This document shows positions 12,193-20,466 of a stretch of 64,000 nucleotides of DNA, one piece after another (the first letter of the stretch is position 1; every line of letters begins with the position of its first letter). This DNA comes from Rugosibacter sp. GTDB taxonomy: Bacteria; Pseudomonadota; Gammaproteobacteria; Burkholderiales; Rhodocyclaceae. A model generated the notes under the pieces. The model saw only the letters and a program-made list of their open reading frames with translations. It was not told where the DNA came from and made no database searches. The DNA lies in assembly GCA_004322535.1 (NCBI GenBank), contig SCUZ01000087.1, forward strand, positions 1-64,000, written 5' to 3'. A program made the translations under genes and the position numbers.

Positions 12193-13164
12193 ATGGACTC
12201 ATCTGAACGGAAGAAGGTTTCTGTAATTACAAGGTATATCTTGGACGCTTTCTCTGAGGGGGACTGGGTCGCACTCGGACAGATTACTGGCAACCTTAAG
12301 ATCATCACTGATCACCCTCGCTTACTTCGTTCCCTTAGTTTCGGGGATGACGACTACCCATATTGCGTAGCAGAAGTTCTTGGCACTATCTTTGATTCGG
12401 ATAACACCCTGATTCCAGAGATCATCGATCACTTCGACATAGATCTCTGGTACCAGCAAAAGGAACCCGAAAAGTACTTGCGGATTTTTACTCCCGCTCT
12501 GATCAAATCTGCGGACTTTTGGAAAGAAGGCTATCTACGAGCATTCATAAGCCACCTCTCATCGAATCGTGAGCGCATGTCTGCCTTAAAGGCTAGTTTG
12601 GCTAATTGGGGAATCTCGGCATTTATAGCCCATGAAGACATAAAAGCTTCACGTGAATGGCGAGACGAAGTGGAAGCTGGGTTGGAAACAATGGATGTTC
12701 TTGTTGCAGTCATTGAGCCTGGTTTCAAAGACTCTGATTGGTGTGCACAGGAGGTCGGCTACGCCCTTGGGCGCAAGATTGACATTGTTCCGCTCCGCGC
12801 CGGACTGGATCCCTTTGGCTTTTTCGGGAAGTATCAGGGTATTCAGGTCAAAGGAAAAGTGCCTGACCTAGTTGCCAACGAAGTTGTTCAAGCGCTTCTG
12901 AATAAGCCGCAACACCGAATGCGCCTGCTTCAGAGTATTGCTAAAGCATTCGCCACATTGCACTCAAAAAGAAAAGTCGAGCTAATTGGCATTCTCGATT
13001 CTTGGTCAATTGCCACAGACCAACAGATCAAGGCCCTTCTTGAACAGGCATCACTTTCCGAGCTTGAACGACGGTCTTTAGAGAGCTTGACTAACAGGGT
13101 TGGTGCATTTAGGCAACCCGAGACTGTAACGCCAACAACTGACTTTGATGACATTCCATTCTAA
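12193..13164 (+). CDS. TIR-domain protein with SSB-like C-terminal tip
   Basis: 323 residues. Residues 1-110 form a helical N-terminal domain that I cannot assign with certainty; it resembles the N-terminal domains fused to effectors in abortive-infection proteins. Residues 116-200 are a TIR domain: LRAFISHLSS, AFIAHEDIKASREW, VLVAVIEPGF and DSDWCAQEVGYALGR, with E187 at the position of the catalytic glutamate of TIR NADases. A helical tail ends in DFDDIPF, nearly identical to the SSB C-terminal tip. The gene is more AT-rich than its neighbours, lacks an obvious ribosome binding site and interrupts a conserved gene order, so transfer is likely. An antiphage NAD-depleting effector is an inference. 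Confidence 0.85.
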   Translation: MDSSERKKVSVITRYILDAFSEGDWVALGQITGNLKIITDHPRLLRSLSFGDDDYPYCVAEVLGTIFDSDNTLIPEIIDHFDIDLWYQQKEPEKYLRIFTPALIKSADFWKEGYLRAFISHLSSNRERMSALKASLANWGISAFIAHEDIKASREWRDEVEAGLETMDVLVAVIEPGFKDSDWCAQEVGYALGRKIDIVPLRAGLDPFGFFGKYQGIQVKGKVPDLVANEVVQALLNKPQHRMRLLQSIAKAFATLHSKRKVELIGILDSWSIATDQQIKALLEQASLSELERRSLESLTNRVGAFRQPETVTPTTDFDDIPF

Positions 13165-15098: not shown

Positions 15099-16415
15099 AT
15101 GACTGATCAACCTTCCCGCTCCGCGCCGCTTGCAGCCGCTCTCCTTGGCGCGACTGACCTCTTGGCCGCTGTCATTTCCGGCCGTACGCTGGATGCTGCG
15201 CTGGCCGAAACCGCACTCTCCGCAACGCCACCCACCGGCCCCTTGCGCGCGGCGGTGATGGATTTGGCCTATTCCACTTTGCGCAGCTTCGGTCGGGGTG
15301 ATTTTCTGCTCGCGCAACTGATGGCCAAACCCTTGACCGATATACACGTGCGCTGCTTGTTGCTGGCCACACTCAACCGGCTGGAAACTCGTCCGGAACA
15401 CGCTTACGCGATTGTGGATCAAGCTGTCACTGCCGCATCGCATTTGGCCGCAGGCAATTTCAAAGGCTTGGTCAATGGCGTGCTGCGTAATTTTTTGCGC
15501 CGTCAAGATGAGCTGTTAGCGCGTGCTAAAGCAACCCCTGTAGCACACTATCAGCATCCGGCCTGGTGGATCACGCGGCTGAAAAAAGATCATCCGCACC
15601 ACTGGCAAGCCATTCTTGCAGCCAGCAATACGCATCCCCCCATGACCTTGCGGGTCAATCTGCGCCGCATCACCAACGCCGACTTTTCAGCACTGCTCAC
15701 GGCCGCCGGATTAACCGCACATGCCGTGGGCGAGGCGGCATGGCGACTCGACAAACCCGTGCCGATAGAACAAATTCCCGGTTTTCGCGAGGGCTTGTGC
15801 TCAGTGCAAGATGCCGGTGCCCAGCGGGCTGCGCTGCTGCTGGATGTGCATCCCGGCCAGCGCGTGCTGGATGCCTGCGCAGCGCCTGGTGGCAAGGCGG
15901 CACATTTGCTTGAGCGCCTGCCTGAAGCGGCGGGTTTGCACCTGCTCGCACTGGATGCGGATCCCGCACGCGCCGCACGAATCACTGAAAACTTCGTCCG
16001 CCTCGGCCTGCGCTCGAACCATGTTCGCGTGCGCACAGGCGACGCTGGTCTGCCCGCCACCTGGTGGGATGGCCAGCCATTTGATCGCATCCTGGCTGAT
16101 GTTCCTTGTACGGCCTCGGGTGTTGTGCGCCGCCATCCGGATGCCAAGTGGCTGCGCCGCGTCAGCGATATTGACCGTTTCATTGCCACACAAATCCGTA
16201 TTCTTGACGCCATCTGGCGCACGCTGGCAAGCGGTGGCAAAATGCTCTATGTCACTTGTTCCTTGTTTTCTGCTGAAAATGAAGCGCAAGTGGCTGCGTT
16301 TATCGGCCGTCATGCCGATGCCCAGCGCCTAGCCATTGATGACGCGCCTTCCGTGCAGCTTTTTCCCCATGCCGACCATGACGGCTTTTTTTACGCACTT
16401 CTACAAAAAAATTAA
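15099..16415 (+). CDS. rsmB: 16S rRNA m5C967 methyltransferase
   Basis: 438 residues with the N-terminal NusB-like RNA-binding domain and a C-terminal Rossmann methyltransferase. Key motifs are DACAAPGGKAAHLLE for S-adenosylmethionine, ADVPCTASGVVRRHPDAKW with the catalytic-pathway cysteine, and YVTCSLFSAENEAQV with the second cysteine. It methylates C967 of 16S rRNA in the cytoplasm. The gene carries one full copy of the 26-bp repeat at 15663-15688 (peptide RRITNADFS). Confidence 0.96.
   Translation: MTDQPSRSAPLAAALLGATDLLAAVISGRTLDAALAETALSATPPTGPLRAAVMDLAYSTLRSFGRGDFLLAQLMAKPLTDIHVRCLLLATLNRLETRPEHAYAIVDQAVTAASHLAAGNFKGLVNGVLRNFLRRQDELLARAKATPVAHYQHPAWWITRLKKDHPHHWQAILAASNTHPPMTLRVNLRRITNADFSALLTAAGLTAHAVGEAAWRLDKPVPIEQIPGFREGLCSVQDAGAQRAALLLDVHPGQRVLDACAAPGGKAAHLLERLPEAAGLHLLALDADPARAARITENFVRLGLRSNHVRVRTGDAGLPATWWDGQPFDRILADVPCTASGVVRRHPDAKWLRRVSDIDRFIATQIRILDAIWRTLASGGKMLYVTCSLFSAENEAQVAAFIGRHADAQRLAIDDAPSVQLFPHADHDGFFYALLQKN
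15663..15688 (+). repeat. 26-bp dispersed motif (rsmB)
   Basis: CGCCGCATCACC then AACGCCGACTTTTC; encodes RRITNADFS. Confidence 0.75.
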
Positions 16416-16484
16416 CGCTCGCTCAAATAAAGCGCAGCGCAGCGGGCCTTGCTAGGCGCTTGGTTAAACTCGCGTGTGGCTTTC

Positions 16485-17093
16485 ATGCGTCAGCTTGCGC
16501 TGATTTCTTTGCTCATGCTGTTAACGAGTTGTGCCTCGGTAGCATTCGCCGGCAGCATTGAAGCACAGCGTGCAAGCATTGCGCTGAGTGAAGAAAATTA
16601 CGCGCTCAATGCTGAATTCACCATTGATCTCGGACGCCGTCTGGACGACGTGGTGACTCATGGCATCCCGCTGTATTTTGATTTTGAAGCCGTACTTGAG
16701 CGGCCGCGAAAATATTGGAGCAACGAGCACATCGCCACGCTCAGTTTGACCTATCGCCTGAGTTATCACGGGCTTACACGCCAATATCGCGTATCCCGAG
16801 TGGCGCAAGGTGCCCAGGCAGGCAGTAGCAGTTTGTATCAAAGTTTTAACACGCTGAACGAAGCCTTGCGTGTTTTGTCGCGCGTCCATGCGTTGCCCCT
16901 CGTCACCCGACAAACCATCATCCCAGGCGAAACGTATATTGCCCGCGTGCGCTTGTCGCTGGACCACAGCCAATTGCCCAAGCCATTTCAGATCGATGCC
17001 ATCACCGACAGCGATTGGCGTATCAACGCCAAAACCATCGAGTGGCAATTTACTGCGCCTGCCGCCGGGGTGGGAACTGGGGCCGTGCCATGA
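16485..17093 (+). CDS. DUF4390 exported protein
   Basis: 202 residues from the ATG at 16485; a TTG at 16449 would add 12 residues before the signal peptide and is less likely. The N-terminus MRQLALISLLMLLTSCASVAFA can be read as a lipoprotein signal (LTSC) or as a type I signal cut after AFA. The rest is a beta-rich DUF4390 domain of unknown function (YALNAEFTIDLGRRLDDVV, GIPLYFDFEAVLERPRKYW, YHGLTRQYRVSR, DSDWRI). It sits directly before ntrY with a 4-base ATGA overlap, so a link to sensing of envelope state by NtrY is possible but unproven. Confidence 0.88.
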   Translation: MRQLALISLLMLLTSCASVAFAGSIEAQRASIALSEENYALNAEFTIDLGRRLDDVVTHGIPLYFDFEAVLERPRKYWSNEHIATLSLTYRLSYHGLTRQYRVSRVAQGAQAGSSSLYQSFNTLNEALRVLSRVHALPLVTRQTIIPGETYIARVRLSLDHSQLPKPFQIDAITDSDWRINAKTIEWQFTAPAAGVGTGAVP

Positions 17094-19228
17094 AGCTGGC
17101 GCTCATTCTGGCCGCCGCCTTAGCCGCGGTGCTGCTTTTTCTACTCGCATTTACCTCGGGCAACACCGCCTTCTTTGCGCAGTATTACCCTTGGCTATTG
17201 GCGTTGAATGGGCTCGCCGCGCTGGGCATGCTGGTTATGATCGCGGTCCAGCTTATTCACTTGCGGCGCGATTTTAAAGCAGGTGTTTTTGGCGCACGGC
17301 TCAAATCCCGCCTGCTGGTGATGCTGGCCTTGATGGCCGTGCTGCCAGGTGCGCTGGTGTATGCCGTCTCCATGCAGTTTGCGGTCAACAGCATCGACTC
17401 CTGGTTTGATGTGCGGGTTGATCGTGCATTGGAAGGCGGGCTGGAGCTTGGTCGTAGCGTGCTCGATAATTTGCAAGGTGATCTGCTGGAAAAAACCCGC
17501 AAAGCCGCCCTTGAGCTTGGCGATAGCCAGATGCCACAAAGCGTTGAATCCGTATCGAGCCAACTCAATCGTCTGCGTGAACAAATGGGAGCAGGCACGG
17601 CCACATTGCTGATGCTCTCCGGCCAAACCATCGCCAGCAGTGTGGGGGACTTGAACAACCTCTTGCCACAGGTGCCCAGCACCAACCAGTTGCGCAGTGC
17701 ACGCAGCGGACGCGGCCTCGCGCTGGTGAGTGAAGATACCGAAGGCCTGACGATCCGCACGCTCGTACCCGTGATTGCCAACACGACACATCTGCTCGAA
17801 TTTGAACCACGCATTCTGCAATTTACCCAACGGGTTCCTGCGGCGATTGCTAAAAATGCCAGCAATGCTGAAGCGGGTTACCGTAATTATCAAGAGCTGC
17901 AATTAGGCCGCAGTGGTCTTAAGCGCATTTACACGCTGACTTTGACGCTTACCTTGATGCTGGCCTTGTTCGCGGCTGTCGCGCTGGCCTTTCTTCTTGC
18001 CGAACGCTTGGCGCAACCGCTGCTGATACTCGCGGAAGGCACGCGTGCGGTGTCAGCGGGCGATTTCACCCCGCGCACGATCATTGAAACCTCTGATGAG
18101 CTGGGGCTTCTGACGCGGTCGTTCAACAACATGACTCGCCAATTGAGCGAAGCCCGCGCAGAAGCTGATCTTCAGCGCGAAAAAACCGAAGCTGCACAAG
18201 CCTATCTGGAAAGTGTGCTGGGCAATTTATCTGCCGGCGTGCTTGCGTTCAGCACGGATTTCCATTTGCGCGCAGCGAACCGTGGCGCGCTCACCATTTT
18301 GCATGATGATCTGGCGGCATTTGAAAAAATACCGCTCTCTGATTGGCCGCGTCATCACACACTGGCGATGACCATCATTGAGGCCTTTACCCGGCATGGC
18401 GACGAATGGCAGCAGCAACTTGACCTGACGCATGATGATCATGCACCGCAAACGCTGCTTATCCGCGGCACCGCGCTACCGGCGACGGGTGGTGGTGGGT
18501 TTGTCGTGGTGTTTGACGACATCACTCGTCTCATCTCGGCACAACGCTCTGCCGCCTGGGCTGAAGTTGCACAGCGCCTGGCGCATGAAATCAAAAACCC
18601 GCTCACGCCCATTCAATTATCAGCCGAGCGCTTGCAAATGAAGCTCGGTACGATGCTGGATGCGCCTTCCCGCGCATTACTTGACCGTGCCACCCACACC
18701 ATCATTACCCAAGTGGAAGCGCTCAAAAGCATGGTGAATAATTTCCGTGATTACGCACGCACGCCCCCCCCGCAGCTCGCCGAAGTGGATTTATACGCGC
18801 TGGTTATCGACGTACTGGCGCTGTACGAAAATACATCGACCCAATTCACCGTCTCACCAGCGCCGACTTTCGCGAATGTTCTTGCAGACATCAATCAAAT
18901 GCGCCAGGTGCTGCATAATCTGTTCGCCAATGCGCAAGATGCACTGGCAAGCGTCGCGCAACCGCGCATCGATATTCGCATCGAGCAAGACAAACACCGC
19001 ATGCGCCTCACCTTGCACGATAACGGCGCAGGCTTTTCACCCCAAATGCTGGCACGCGCATTTGAACCGTATGTCACCACCAAAACCAAGGGCACCGGTT
19101 TGGGTTTGGCAATTGTGAAAAAAATCATTGATGACCATGGTGGAGAAATTCGCCTGGCTAACCACGATGGCGGCGAAGTCAGCTTGTGGCTGCTCGTCGC
19201 CAGTGGCAAGAAAACAACCTCGGAATAA
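17090..19228 (+). CDS. ntrY: Sensor histidine kinase NtrY
   Basis: 712-residue membrane sensor kinase. It has two hydrophobic hairpins at the N-terminus, a periplasmic sensor loop, a further transmembrane segment followed by HAMP (ERLAQPLLILAEGTRAVSAGDF), and a PAS-like region. The HisKA phosphoacceptor motif LAHEIKNPLTPIQLSAERL and the HATPase motifs LHNLFANAQDAL, DNGAGF and TKGTGLGLAIVKKI follow. The start is the ATG at 17090 overlapping the DUF4390 stop; an upstream in-frame start would precede the first membrane segment by 25 polar residues. It pairs with ntrX. NtrYX systems in relatives respond to nitrogen or redox state; the signal here is unknown. Confidence 0.94.
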   Translation: MKLALILAAALAAVLLFLLAFTSGNTAFFAQYYPWLLALNGLAALGMLVMIAVQLIHLRRDFKAGVFGARLKSRLLVMLALMAVLPGALVYAVSMQFAVNSIDSWFDVRVDRALEGGLELGRSVLDNLQGDLLEKTRKAALELGDSQMPQSVESVSSQLNRLREQMGAGTATLLMLSGQTIASSVGDLNNLLPQVPSTNQLRSARSGRGLALVSEDTEGLTIRTLVPVIANTTHLLEFEPRILQFTQRVPAAIAKNASNAEAGYRNYQELQLGRSGLKRIYTLTLTLTLMLALFAAVALAFLLAERLAQPLLILAEGTRAVSAGDFTPRTIIETSDELGLLTRSFNNMTRQLSEARAEADLQREKTEAAQAYLESVLGNLSAGVLAFSTDFHLRAANRGALTILHDDLAAFEKIPLSDWPRHHTLAMTIIEAFTRHGDEWQQQLDLTHDDHAPQTLLIRGTALPATGGGGFVVVFDDITRLISAQRSAAWAEVAQRLAHEIKNPLTPIQLSAERLQMKLGTMLDAPSRALLDRATHTIITQVEALKSMVNNFRDYARTPPPQLAEVDLYALVIDVLALYENTSTQFTVSPAPTFANVLADINQMRQVLHNLFANAQDALASVAQPRIDIRIEQDKHRMRLTLHDNGAGFSPQMLARAFEPYVTTKTKGTGLGLAIVKKIIDDHGGEIRLANHDGGEVSLWLLVASGKKTTSE
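18847..18872 (+). repeat. 26-bp dispersed motif (ntrY)
   Basis: CACCGTCTCACC then AGCGCCGACTTTCG; encodes TVSPAPTF, a different frame from the rsmB copy. Confidence 0.75.
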
Positions 19229-19230
19229 AT

Positions 19231-20466
19231 ATGTCAAAAATACTCATAATCGATGATGAAGTGGGCATTCGCGAGCTGCTCTCGGAAATTTTGCGCGATG
19301 AGGGCCATGACGTTGTACTCGCAGAAAATGCCGTCAGCGCTAAAATCGCACGCGCCGAGGCACAACCCGATTTGATTCTGCTTGATATCTGGATGCCGGA
19401 AGTCGACGGCATCAGCCTGCTCAAGGAATGGGCAGCACATGGCCAGCTCAATGTGCCCGTCGTGATGATGTCCGGCCATGCCACCATTGATACGGCAGTC
19501 GAAGCCACGCGCATTGGCGCGCTGGATTTTCTGGAAAAACCCATCGGCATGCAAAAACTCTTGCAGACCGTAAAAAAAGCGCTTGAGCGCGGTACCCGCA
19601 AGCAGCGCAGCGGGTTATCGCTCGCCGCCTTTACCCGCCCAGGCGTGTTGCGTGATTTAAAACAGCGCTTCGAGCAATTGCTCGCCAGCAGCCCTTCATT
19701 GCTGCTGCGCTCGGCCCCGGGTGGCATCGTTGAGCTTGTTGCACTCACCGCGCAGACGACTAACAAACCCGTGCTTGATCTGGCCAGTGAATTCGAGCCA
19801 CTCGAAGTGGAAAAACTTGAATCGCTCAAAGAGGGCTTGTTGTGGTGCGAAGAACTGTCACGACTTAATCGTTTGCAGCAGAAAAATCTGTGTTTTGCCG
19901 CCGAACGATTAACCAGGTATCAGTTGCGCCTGGTGGTTGGCACCATACACGACCCAACCAGCCTGATCGCGCAGGGATGGGAAGAAGGCATTGTCAAAAT
20001 ACTGTTCGAGTCAGTGTTGGGAGTGCCTGCCCTGAAGGAACTCAAAGAGGAAGTGCCGGATATTGCCACGCACTTGTTGAGCTTTTTGACTGAAGAAGAA
20101 GCCGTGCCCTTGCGGCGCTTTACCACCGGCGCTTTAAATGCCTTGCGCCATCGTGCCTGGGTCGAGGGTTATCCAGCACTTCGTGCGGCCGTGAAATCAC
20201 TCGCCGTGGCAGCGCTGGATGAAGAGATTTCCGCCGAAGAAGTGCGTCAGCTACTCACCCCTGCAGGTGAGCCTGATCAAGTAAACCAACAACTCAACCC
20301 GGAAATTATCCAGCAGCCCTTGCGCGAAGCGCGCGAAGCTTTCGAGCGCATTTACTTCTTGCATCATCTCGCAGAAGTTGATGGCAACATGGTGCGTCTG
20401 GCAGAAAAAACCGGCCTTGAGCGCACACATCTTTATCGCAAATTAAAAGACTTGGGCTTGCGCTAA
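19231..20466 (+). CDS. ntrX: NtrX-type response regulator, degenerate AAA+ domain
   Basis: 411 residues. The receiver domain (1-120) is intact: D8-D9, phosphoacceptor D52 in LLDIWMP, S81 and K103. The middle region (about 130-330) is recognisable as a sigma-54 activator AAA+ domain by its C-terminal landmark VPALKELKEEVPDIATHLL. However, the Walker A motif GESGTGKE is replaced by RSAPGGIVE, the Walker B aspartates read LLWCEEL, and no GAFTGA loop exists. A Fis-type helix-turn-helix ends the protein (NMVRLAEKTGLERTHLYRKLKDLGL). It should bind DNA but cannot hydrolyse ATP or remodel sigma-54 polymerase. It starts 2 bases after the ntrY stop. Confidence 0.88.
   Translation: MSKILIIDDEVGIRELLSEILRDEGHDVVLAENAVSAKIARAEAQPDLILLDIWMPEVDGISLLKEWAAHGQLNVPVVMMSGHATIDTAVEATRIGALDFLEKPIGMQKLLQTVKKALERGTRKQRSGLSLAAFTRPGVLRDLKQRFEQLLASSPSLLLRSAPGGIVELVALTAQTTNKPVLDLASEFEPLEVEKLESLKEGLLWCEELSRLNRLQQKNLCFAAERLTRYQLRLVVGTIHDPTSLIAQGWEEGIVKILFESVLGVPALKELKEEVPDIATHLLSFLTEEEAVPLRRFTTGALNALRHRAWVEGYPALRAAVKSLAVAALDEEISAEEVRQLLTPAGEPDQVNQQLNPEIIQQPLREAREAFERIYFLHHLAEVDGNMVRLAEKTGLERTHLYRKLKDLGLR

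Follow-up and report, generated by a model that had tools for sequence, protein, structure and literature searches.

Regulators that have lost the sigma54 loop and control transcription without sigma54 are described, in the available portions of PMC10274813 and PMC3162934, for NtrC of Caulobacter and Rhodobacter, TyrR, HupR, and VpsR. Caulobacter NtrX and NtrC are without the GAFTGA motif, and action at sigma70 promoters is possible for regulators of this kind (excerpts of PMC10274813). For the beta-proteobacteria, the accessible part of a 2026 paper (PMC13001219, citing Bonato 2016) states that NtrX proteins "lack the AAA+ domain", and the outline of NtrX AAA+ loss is already published there. 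The same part describes the arrangement rsmB-plrP-ntrY-ntrX for beta- and gamma-proteobacterial NtrYX systems, gives the role of the plrP homologue as known in Bordetella, and names PlrR~P as essential in that genus. NtrX is reported to be essential or putatively essential in several bacteria (excerpts of PMC9769520 and PMC13001219); in Azoarcus olearius, ntrX is putatively essential by Tn-seq (PMC9769520, in part).

The gene considered here lies in a 64,000-nucleotide stretch of Rugosibacter sp. DNA (the window), where it is the last gene of an rsmB-DUF4390(plrP)-ntrY-ntrX cluster and directly follows ntrY (Table 1). The start of ntrY was taken as the ATG at 17090 and that of the plrP homologue as the ATG at 16485; for the latter, the start in the ORF list is a TTG at 16449, and the PF14334 scan ran from 16482, one codon ahead of the ATG. 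The Pfam model of the NtrY N-terminus matches the kinase at an E value of 0.44 only. NtrX itself matches Sigma54_activ_2 (3.1e-8, residues 141-268), HTH_8 (8.7e-5), and AAA_lid_14 (0.00044, 20.4 bits, under the 27-bit cut-off). Among 111 NCBIfam families its top match is NF051870 (NtrX) with 201.9 bits, and because this score falls short of the curated 600-bit cut-off, the protein is filed as an NtrX/PlrR orthologue by position and rank, outside the curated family. Elsewhere in the window, positions 12193-13164 (+) encode a 323-aa protein with a TIR-like stretch (residues 116-200) that weakly matches ThsB-type defence proteins (PADLOC, 2.3e-5).

Table 1. Features of the ntrX locus, with positions in the window and the basis of each assignment
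Feature	Position	Strand	Basis
ntrX (plrR-type) response regulator	19231..20466	+	Open frame, 411 aa; ORF and translation
Receiver domain, residues 3-118	19237..19584	+	Pfam PF00072, 1.6e-27, residues 4-114
Degenerate AAA+ domain, residues 129-352, predicted folded	19615..20286	+	Pfam matches, AF2, and structure search
Former Walker A, RSAPGGIV, residues 160-167	19708..19731	+	Alignment with relatives
L1/GAFTGA deletion site, residues 184-202	19780..19836	+	Residue spacing versus other groups
Former Walker B, LLWCEEL, residues 203-209	19837..19857	+	Alignment with relatives
Former Arg-finger region, GWEEGIVKILF, residues 249-259	19975..20007	+	Alignment with relatives
Former sensor II, WVEGYPALR, residues 310-318	20158..20184	+	Alignment with relatives
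Fis-type HTH DNA-binding domain, residues 362-409	20314..20457	+	HTH_8 over residues 368-407, ERTHLYRK
ntrY sensor kinase (HAMP, PAS, HisKA with HEIKNPLTP, HATPase)	17090..19228	+	Pfam, sequence
plrP homologue (DUF4390), possible third component	16485..17093	+	PF14334, 5.1e-48
rsmB, conserved neighbour	15099..16415	+	PF01189, 3.5e-49

The earlier note held that this NtrX has an intact reading frame, receiver, and Fis-like HTH around an AAA+ domain that lacks its ATPase motifs. The frame is indeed open throughout, and both outer domains are intact by their Pfam matches and by their key residues. D8, D9, D52, S81, and K103 of the receiver, which we take to be the phosphorylation residue set, are invariant in 75 aligned sequences (D8, D9, and S81 in a second alignment, A2, as well), and the ERTHLYRK stretch of the HTH is nearly invariant among 75 aligned sequences. 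In the central domain, alignment with relatives places RSAPGGIV at the position of GEPGSGKE, with V in the column of the Walker A lysine, and Walker A is lost as claimed. The Arg-finger column holds E and the sensor II Arg column holds P. The alteration ascribed to Walker B is found at its Asp, replaced by E, but not at the second acidic position, which is still acidic (CEE). The spacing from the strand after Walker A to Walker B is 21 residues, compared with a median of 37 in the other orders of the class and of 42 outside the class, so the L1/GAFTGA stretch, rightly noted as absent, has been deleted and not just mutated. An ATPase site elsewhere in NtrX, which would have overturned the claim, was sought by pattern and not seen, with zero matches to P-loop patterns (GxxGxGK/R, GxxxxGK, and [AG]xxxxGK[ST]) in the whole 411-residue protein, in which the GK dipeptide is also absent. 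Among the traits of a bEBP, the protein thus retains the AAA+ fold (predicted) and the Fis-type HTH and lacks GAFTGA, Walker A/B, the Arg finger, and sensor II. Judging from the lost motifs, ATP binding and hydrolysis of the usual kind are not expected of the former AAA+ domain, and annotation of such NtrX proteins as sigma54-dependent regulators would mislead.

The loss is shared across the order (that of Rhodocyclaceae and other beta-proteobacteria), the question that the earlier note wished to settle by aligning NtrX from related genera. NtrX is present in all but one of 61 genomes, the Rugosibacter genome included (the exception, G003, is 82% complete in 500 contigs; ntrX of G022 is spread over two contigs). 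The Walker A lysine occurs in 0 of the 131 distinct order sequences that retain the domain and in 0 of 140 when nine short ones are counted, and both the lysine and GAFTGA are absent from all 143 order rows (140 distinct, nine short). At the second Walker B position, most order rows still have an acidic residue (34/36 in the family of Rugosibacter sp.). The dead domain is also found in NtrX of Sulfuritalea, Aromatoleum, Accumulibacter, Dechloromonas, Azospira, Methyloversatilis, Nitrosomonas, Thiobacillus, Methylotenera, and Chromobacterium. Azoarcus olearius presumably belongs near the family of Rugosibacter sp.

In other orders of the class, the lysine is kept in 50 of 67 rows, while GAFTGA occurs in 0 of 67. 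These rows represent one per genome for 67 of the 121 matching non-order genomes (184 searched) and comprise the 28 best-scoring loci and 39 chosen ones, about half of them weak-end matches; two are short, at least one of which is cut by a contig end. In other classes, the lysine is present in 27/27 rows (26/26 distinct) and a GAF[TPSAV]xA loop in 17/27; these rows cover all but one of the 28 non-order matches from a second search, and their orthology rests on sequence rank and, for most, an NtrY-like kinase on the same fragment, rather than on a tree. Since other orders have no GAFTGA and yet mostly retain the lysine, the loop was probably lost first and the ATPase later. By sequence, the loss of GAFTGA reaches past the order, and the dead state predates the genus and the family. 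Arg replaces the Walker A lysine in 13 of the 67 other-order rows and A, I, or L in three, which suggests repeated later ATPase losses in single lineages.

L066 (G023), from the same family as Rugosibacter sp., is a very divergent NtrX with an almost unrecognizable central domain and forms the longest end branch of the trees. Two genomes of two families, each with a full-length NtrX match besides, encode a second NtrX-like protein of 503 and 509 aa, respectively (L296, G058:C29:90000-95500; L297, G370:C98:30000-35500), in which the C-terminal Fis/HTH module is duplicated in tandem, GAFTGA is missing, and Arg stands in place of the Walker A lysine. Three MAG contigs titled Bordetella parapertussis (L096, L113, and L125) bear a full-length remnant NtrX; L113 and L125 cluster together in the tree and L096 lies elsewhere. 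As PlrR is reported to be without AAA+, these titles are probably mislabels.

Loss of sigma54 as the cause of the ATPase loss is ruled out, as rpoN is found in 61/61 genomes, the Rugosibacter genome included (the match in G012, 84% complete, is weak at 9.2e-9). The Rugosibacter genome has one rpoN and seven near-complete Sigma54_activat domains; an eighth lies at a contig end, and four further matches are weak. The two of the seven that were read carry GAFTGA and GAFSGA. The NtrX motif GCAn9TGC, as given in the available part of PMC7240162, has 40 matches in the window against 48 expected.

In some families of the order, the domain has been cut to a linker. NtrX was found in 146 of 150 order genomes, with 49 families sampled: 108 genomes (38 families) carry the full-length remnant and 38 (10 families) a short form, a split counted by hand from match span and frame length, and no family mixes the two. 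G401, with its gene on two separate contigs, and G434, matched to residue 344 and full length when read, were placed with the remnant group; G399, G376, and G438, with longer open frames, were placed with the short group, their sequences having been read. In the 26 of the 38 short forms that were read as sequence, a linker of about 30-100 residues joins the receiver to the HTH, and all 26 have an NtrY-like kinase on the same fragment. Family f221 shows no NtrX match at E 1e-35 in 4/4 sampled genomes (G350, G388, G421, and G450), which had only 1 to 3 candidates in a first look.

Two trees differ on how often the domain was removed. On the tree of NtrX alone (173 receiver-HTH columns, 153 rows), four changes are counted on the free tree; a single deletion is not rejected there (AU p 0.77), the constrained tree having fitted better, and neither is one origin of the main short group with family f24 (AU p 0.86). 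The NtrY+NtrX tree (588 columns; 72 rows hand-picked out of 243 with NtrY) has three changes, all three forced by well-supported branches, and rejects a single deletion (AU p 0.006). L101, L105, L115, and L124, in which the pattern used missed the HTH, and the outgroup row L159 were left out of the trees. Taking the longer NtrY+NtrX alignment as the better of the two conflicting tests, the domain was probably cut to a linker by three or more deletions, and such repeated deletions suggest that the remnant is useful but replaceable. The sampled NtrX proteins thus grade from ATPase through shell to bare linker.

With these observations, the protein is likely a PlrR-type DNA-binding regulator that acts independently of sigma54 under the control of NtrY, and in which a folded scaffold can be replaced by a linker. 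An ancestor of the lineage would first have given up contact with sigma54 and then lost the ATPase. NtrY would phosphorylate D52, as the intact residues and the adjoining kinase gene suggest, and the phosphorylated receiver would make the C-terminal Fis-type HTHs pair up on DNA, putatively as a dimer. DNA binding would then be enough to switch promoters, presumably in concert with sigma70-type RNA polymerase. The former AAA+ domain would serve as a scaffold of predicted fold that sets the receiver-HTH geometry, a role that the linker of the short forms could take over, as has probably happened three times or more. The acidic residue kept at the second Walker B position in most order rows counts against a pure spacer. 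Tentatively, and with considerable doubt, the retained domain may be an exapted, nucleotide-free coupler that passes receiver phosphorylation on to the HTHs, perhaps with a new ligand or partner; if true, molecular motor, passive scaffold, and bare linker would stand as successive natural stages in NtrX of the order.

AlphaFold2 gave a mean pLDDT of 91.4 for the whole Rugosibacter sp. NtrX and 95.1 for the remnant alone, which was folded and searched by itself because the whole-model structure search mostly returned receiver domains. The best structural matches of the remnant are bEBP AAA+ domains (50 best listed, Z 18.1 to 13.4), led by FleQ (7ejw_D; Z 18.1, rmsd 3.6, 218 residues) and including VpsR (7v2b_A; Z 16.8, rmsd 3.8, 210 residues) and Brucella NtrX (5m7n_A; Z 16.5, rmsd 4.5, 222 residues); the other AAA+ proteins DnaA, Tip48, and Lon stand near the lower end of these 50. 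The remnant is thus predicted to keep the bEBP AAA+ fold. It could have become a module that binds a new ligand or partner, e.g., a nucleotide second messenger as in VpsR and FleQ, and gates the regulator. Such a task would fit a domain that is predicted to be folded, is under purifying selection, is kept in 38 of the 48 families with NtrX, and has among its fold matches the VpsR entry 7v2b_A, titled a c-di-GMP-binding dimer. VpsR, for its part, is not known to form part of an NtrYX pair. The clean deletions, probably three or more and with NtrY still in place, speak against the module, as does the pattern of conservation: only twelve polar/Trp positions of the remnant are kept in at least 80% of 75 sequences, and they are scattered over the domain. 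A gating module of this kind is therefore improbable.

Under a codon model with seven genomes, omega (dN/dS) is 0.053, 0.101, and 0.023 for the NtrX receiver, remnant, and HTH, respectively, and 0.053, 0.040, and 0.010 for the receiver, AAA+, and HTH of a GAFTGA-bearing activator from the same seven genomes. Fixing the remnant omega at 1 costs 223 lnL units (seven genomes). The remnant omega is 0.130 with eight genomes of the genus and 0.142 with 20 genomes of the family, a level at which saturated synonymous sites may affect the estimate. The remnant is therefore under moderate purifying selection that is ~2.5 times looser than on the working AAA+ domain, and the dN/dS comparison suggested in the earlier note gives no sign of neutral decay. 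At the former Walker A, column entropy averages 1.90 in the order, 1.14 in other orders, and 0.71 in other classes, the latter two being groups that mostly keep the ATPase; the three groups differ in overall diversity. The Walker B, sensor I, Arg-finger, and sensor II columns are likewise looser in the order, as is the VPxLRE lid stretch (1.63 vs 1.16 and 1.21), while one other lid stretch is no looser (1.54 vs 1.53 and 1.86). P266, R306, W310, and L317 show no variation among 75 sequences.

Drift of the regulator, or of its middle, toward loss could explain the looser constraint (0.101 vs 0.040) and the repeated removal of the domain, yet omega far below 1, a receiver under the same constraint as in the control, the absence of internal stops from the NtrX matches in the 61-genome set, and the remnant state in 38 of the 48 families make decay under way very unlikely. 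The stable change proposed in the earlier note, as opposed to a pseudogene, agrees with the order-wide state, the low omega, the predicted fold, and the presence of NtrY and the DUF4390 gene. A sequencing or assembly error can be dismissed, given that two other genomes encode orthologues with 97% identity and a genome in one contig encodes one with 88%, all with the same motif; with open frames in addition, a pseudogene is ruled out too.

A PlrR-type regulator with a dead but retained AAA+ domain compares with known systems as follows. PlrR of Bordetella (PlrPSR) shares the cluster order rsmB-plrP-kinase-regulator with Rugosibacter sp. and, known here by description, consists of a receiver and a DNA-binding domain (available part of PMC13001219); the Rugosibacter sp. 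protein differs in keeping a dead AAA+ domain of ~220 residues that is predicted to be folded. NtrX of Brucella abortus (5m7n/o/p) is the top PDB sequence match (E 5.4e-43, residues 3-410), with the same domain order and GAFTGA likewise absent from the aligned sequence. It has Walker A (GPSGAGKE) and Walker B (LDE), unlike the Rugosibacter sp. protein, which has neither, and its entries are ATP and ADP complexes by title. RegA/PrrA/ActR regulators combine a receiver with a Fis-type HTH and have no AAA+ domain, as is also true of the short NtrX forms, and presumably differ from NtrX in receiver lineage and partner kinase. Their short receiver-HTH linker is present in the short cousins but not in Rugosibacter sp. 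NtrX with its ~220-residue domain. Among the sigma54-free regulators, Caulobacter NtrC still depends on residues of Walker A and B, and NtrC of R. capsulatus on ATP binding, while V. cholerae VpsR (there spelt VspR) is said to need no ATP (all from excerpts of PMC10274813) and is nearest in behaviour.

No description of a folded-remnant NtrX was found in the open-access literature searched; Bonato 2016 (FEBS J) may cover part of it. What is added to print is that most sampled beta-type NtrX proteins (108/146 genomes) keep a dead, apparently folded AAA+ domain, with the predicted fold applying to the sets modelled. The stages side by side make the role of an AAA+ domain after loss of sigma54 contact testable by swapping natural versions. 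Rugosibacter sp. NtrX lies between the known cases, with the domain kept and the catalytic motifs lost.
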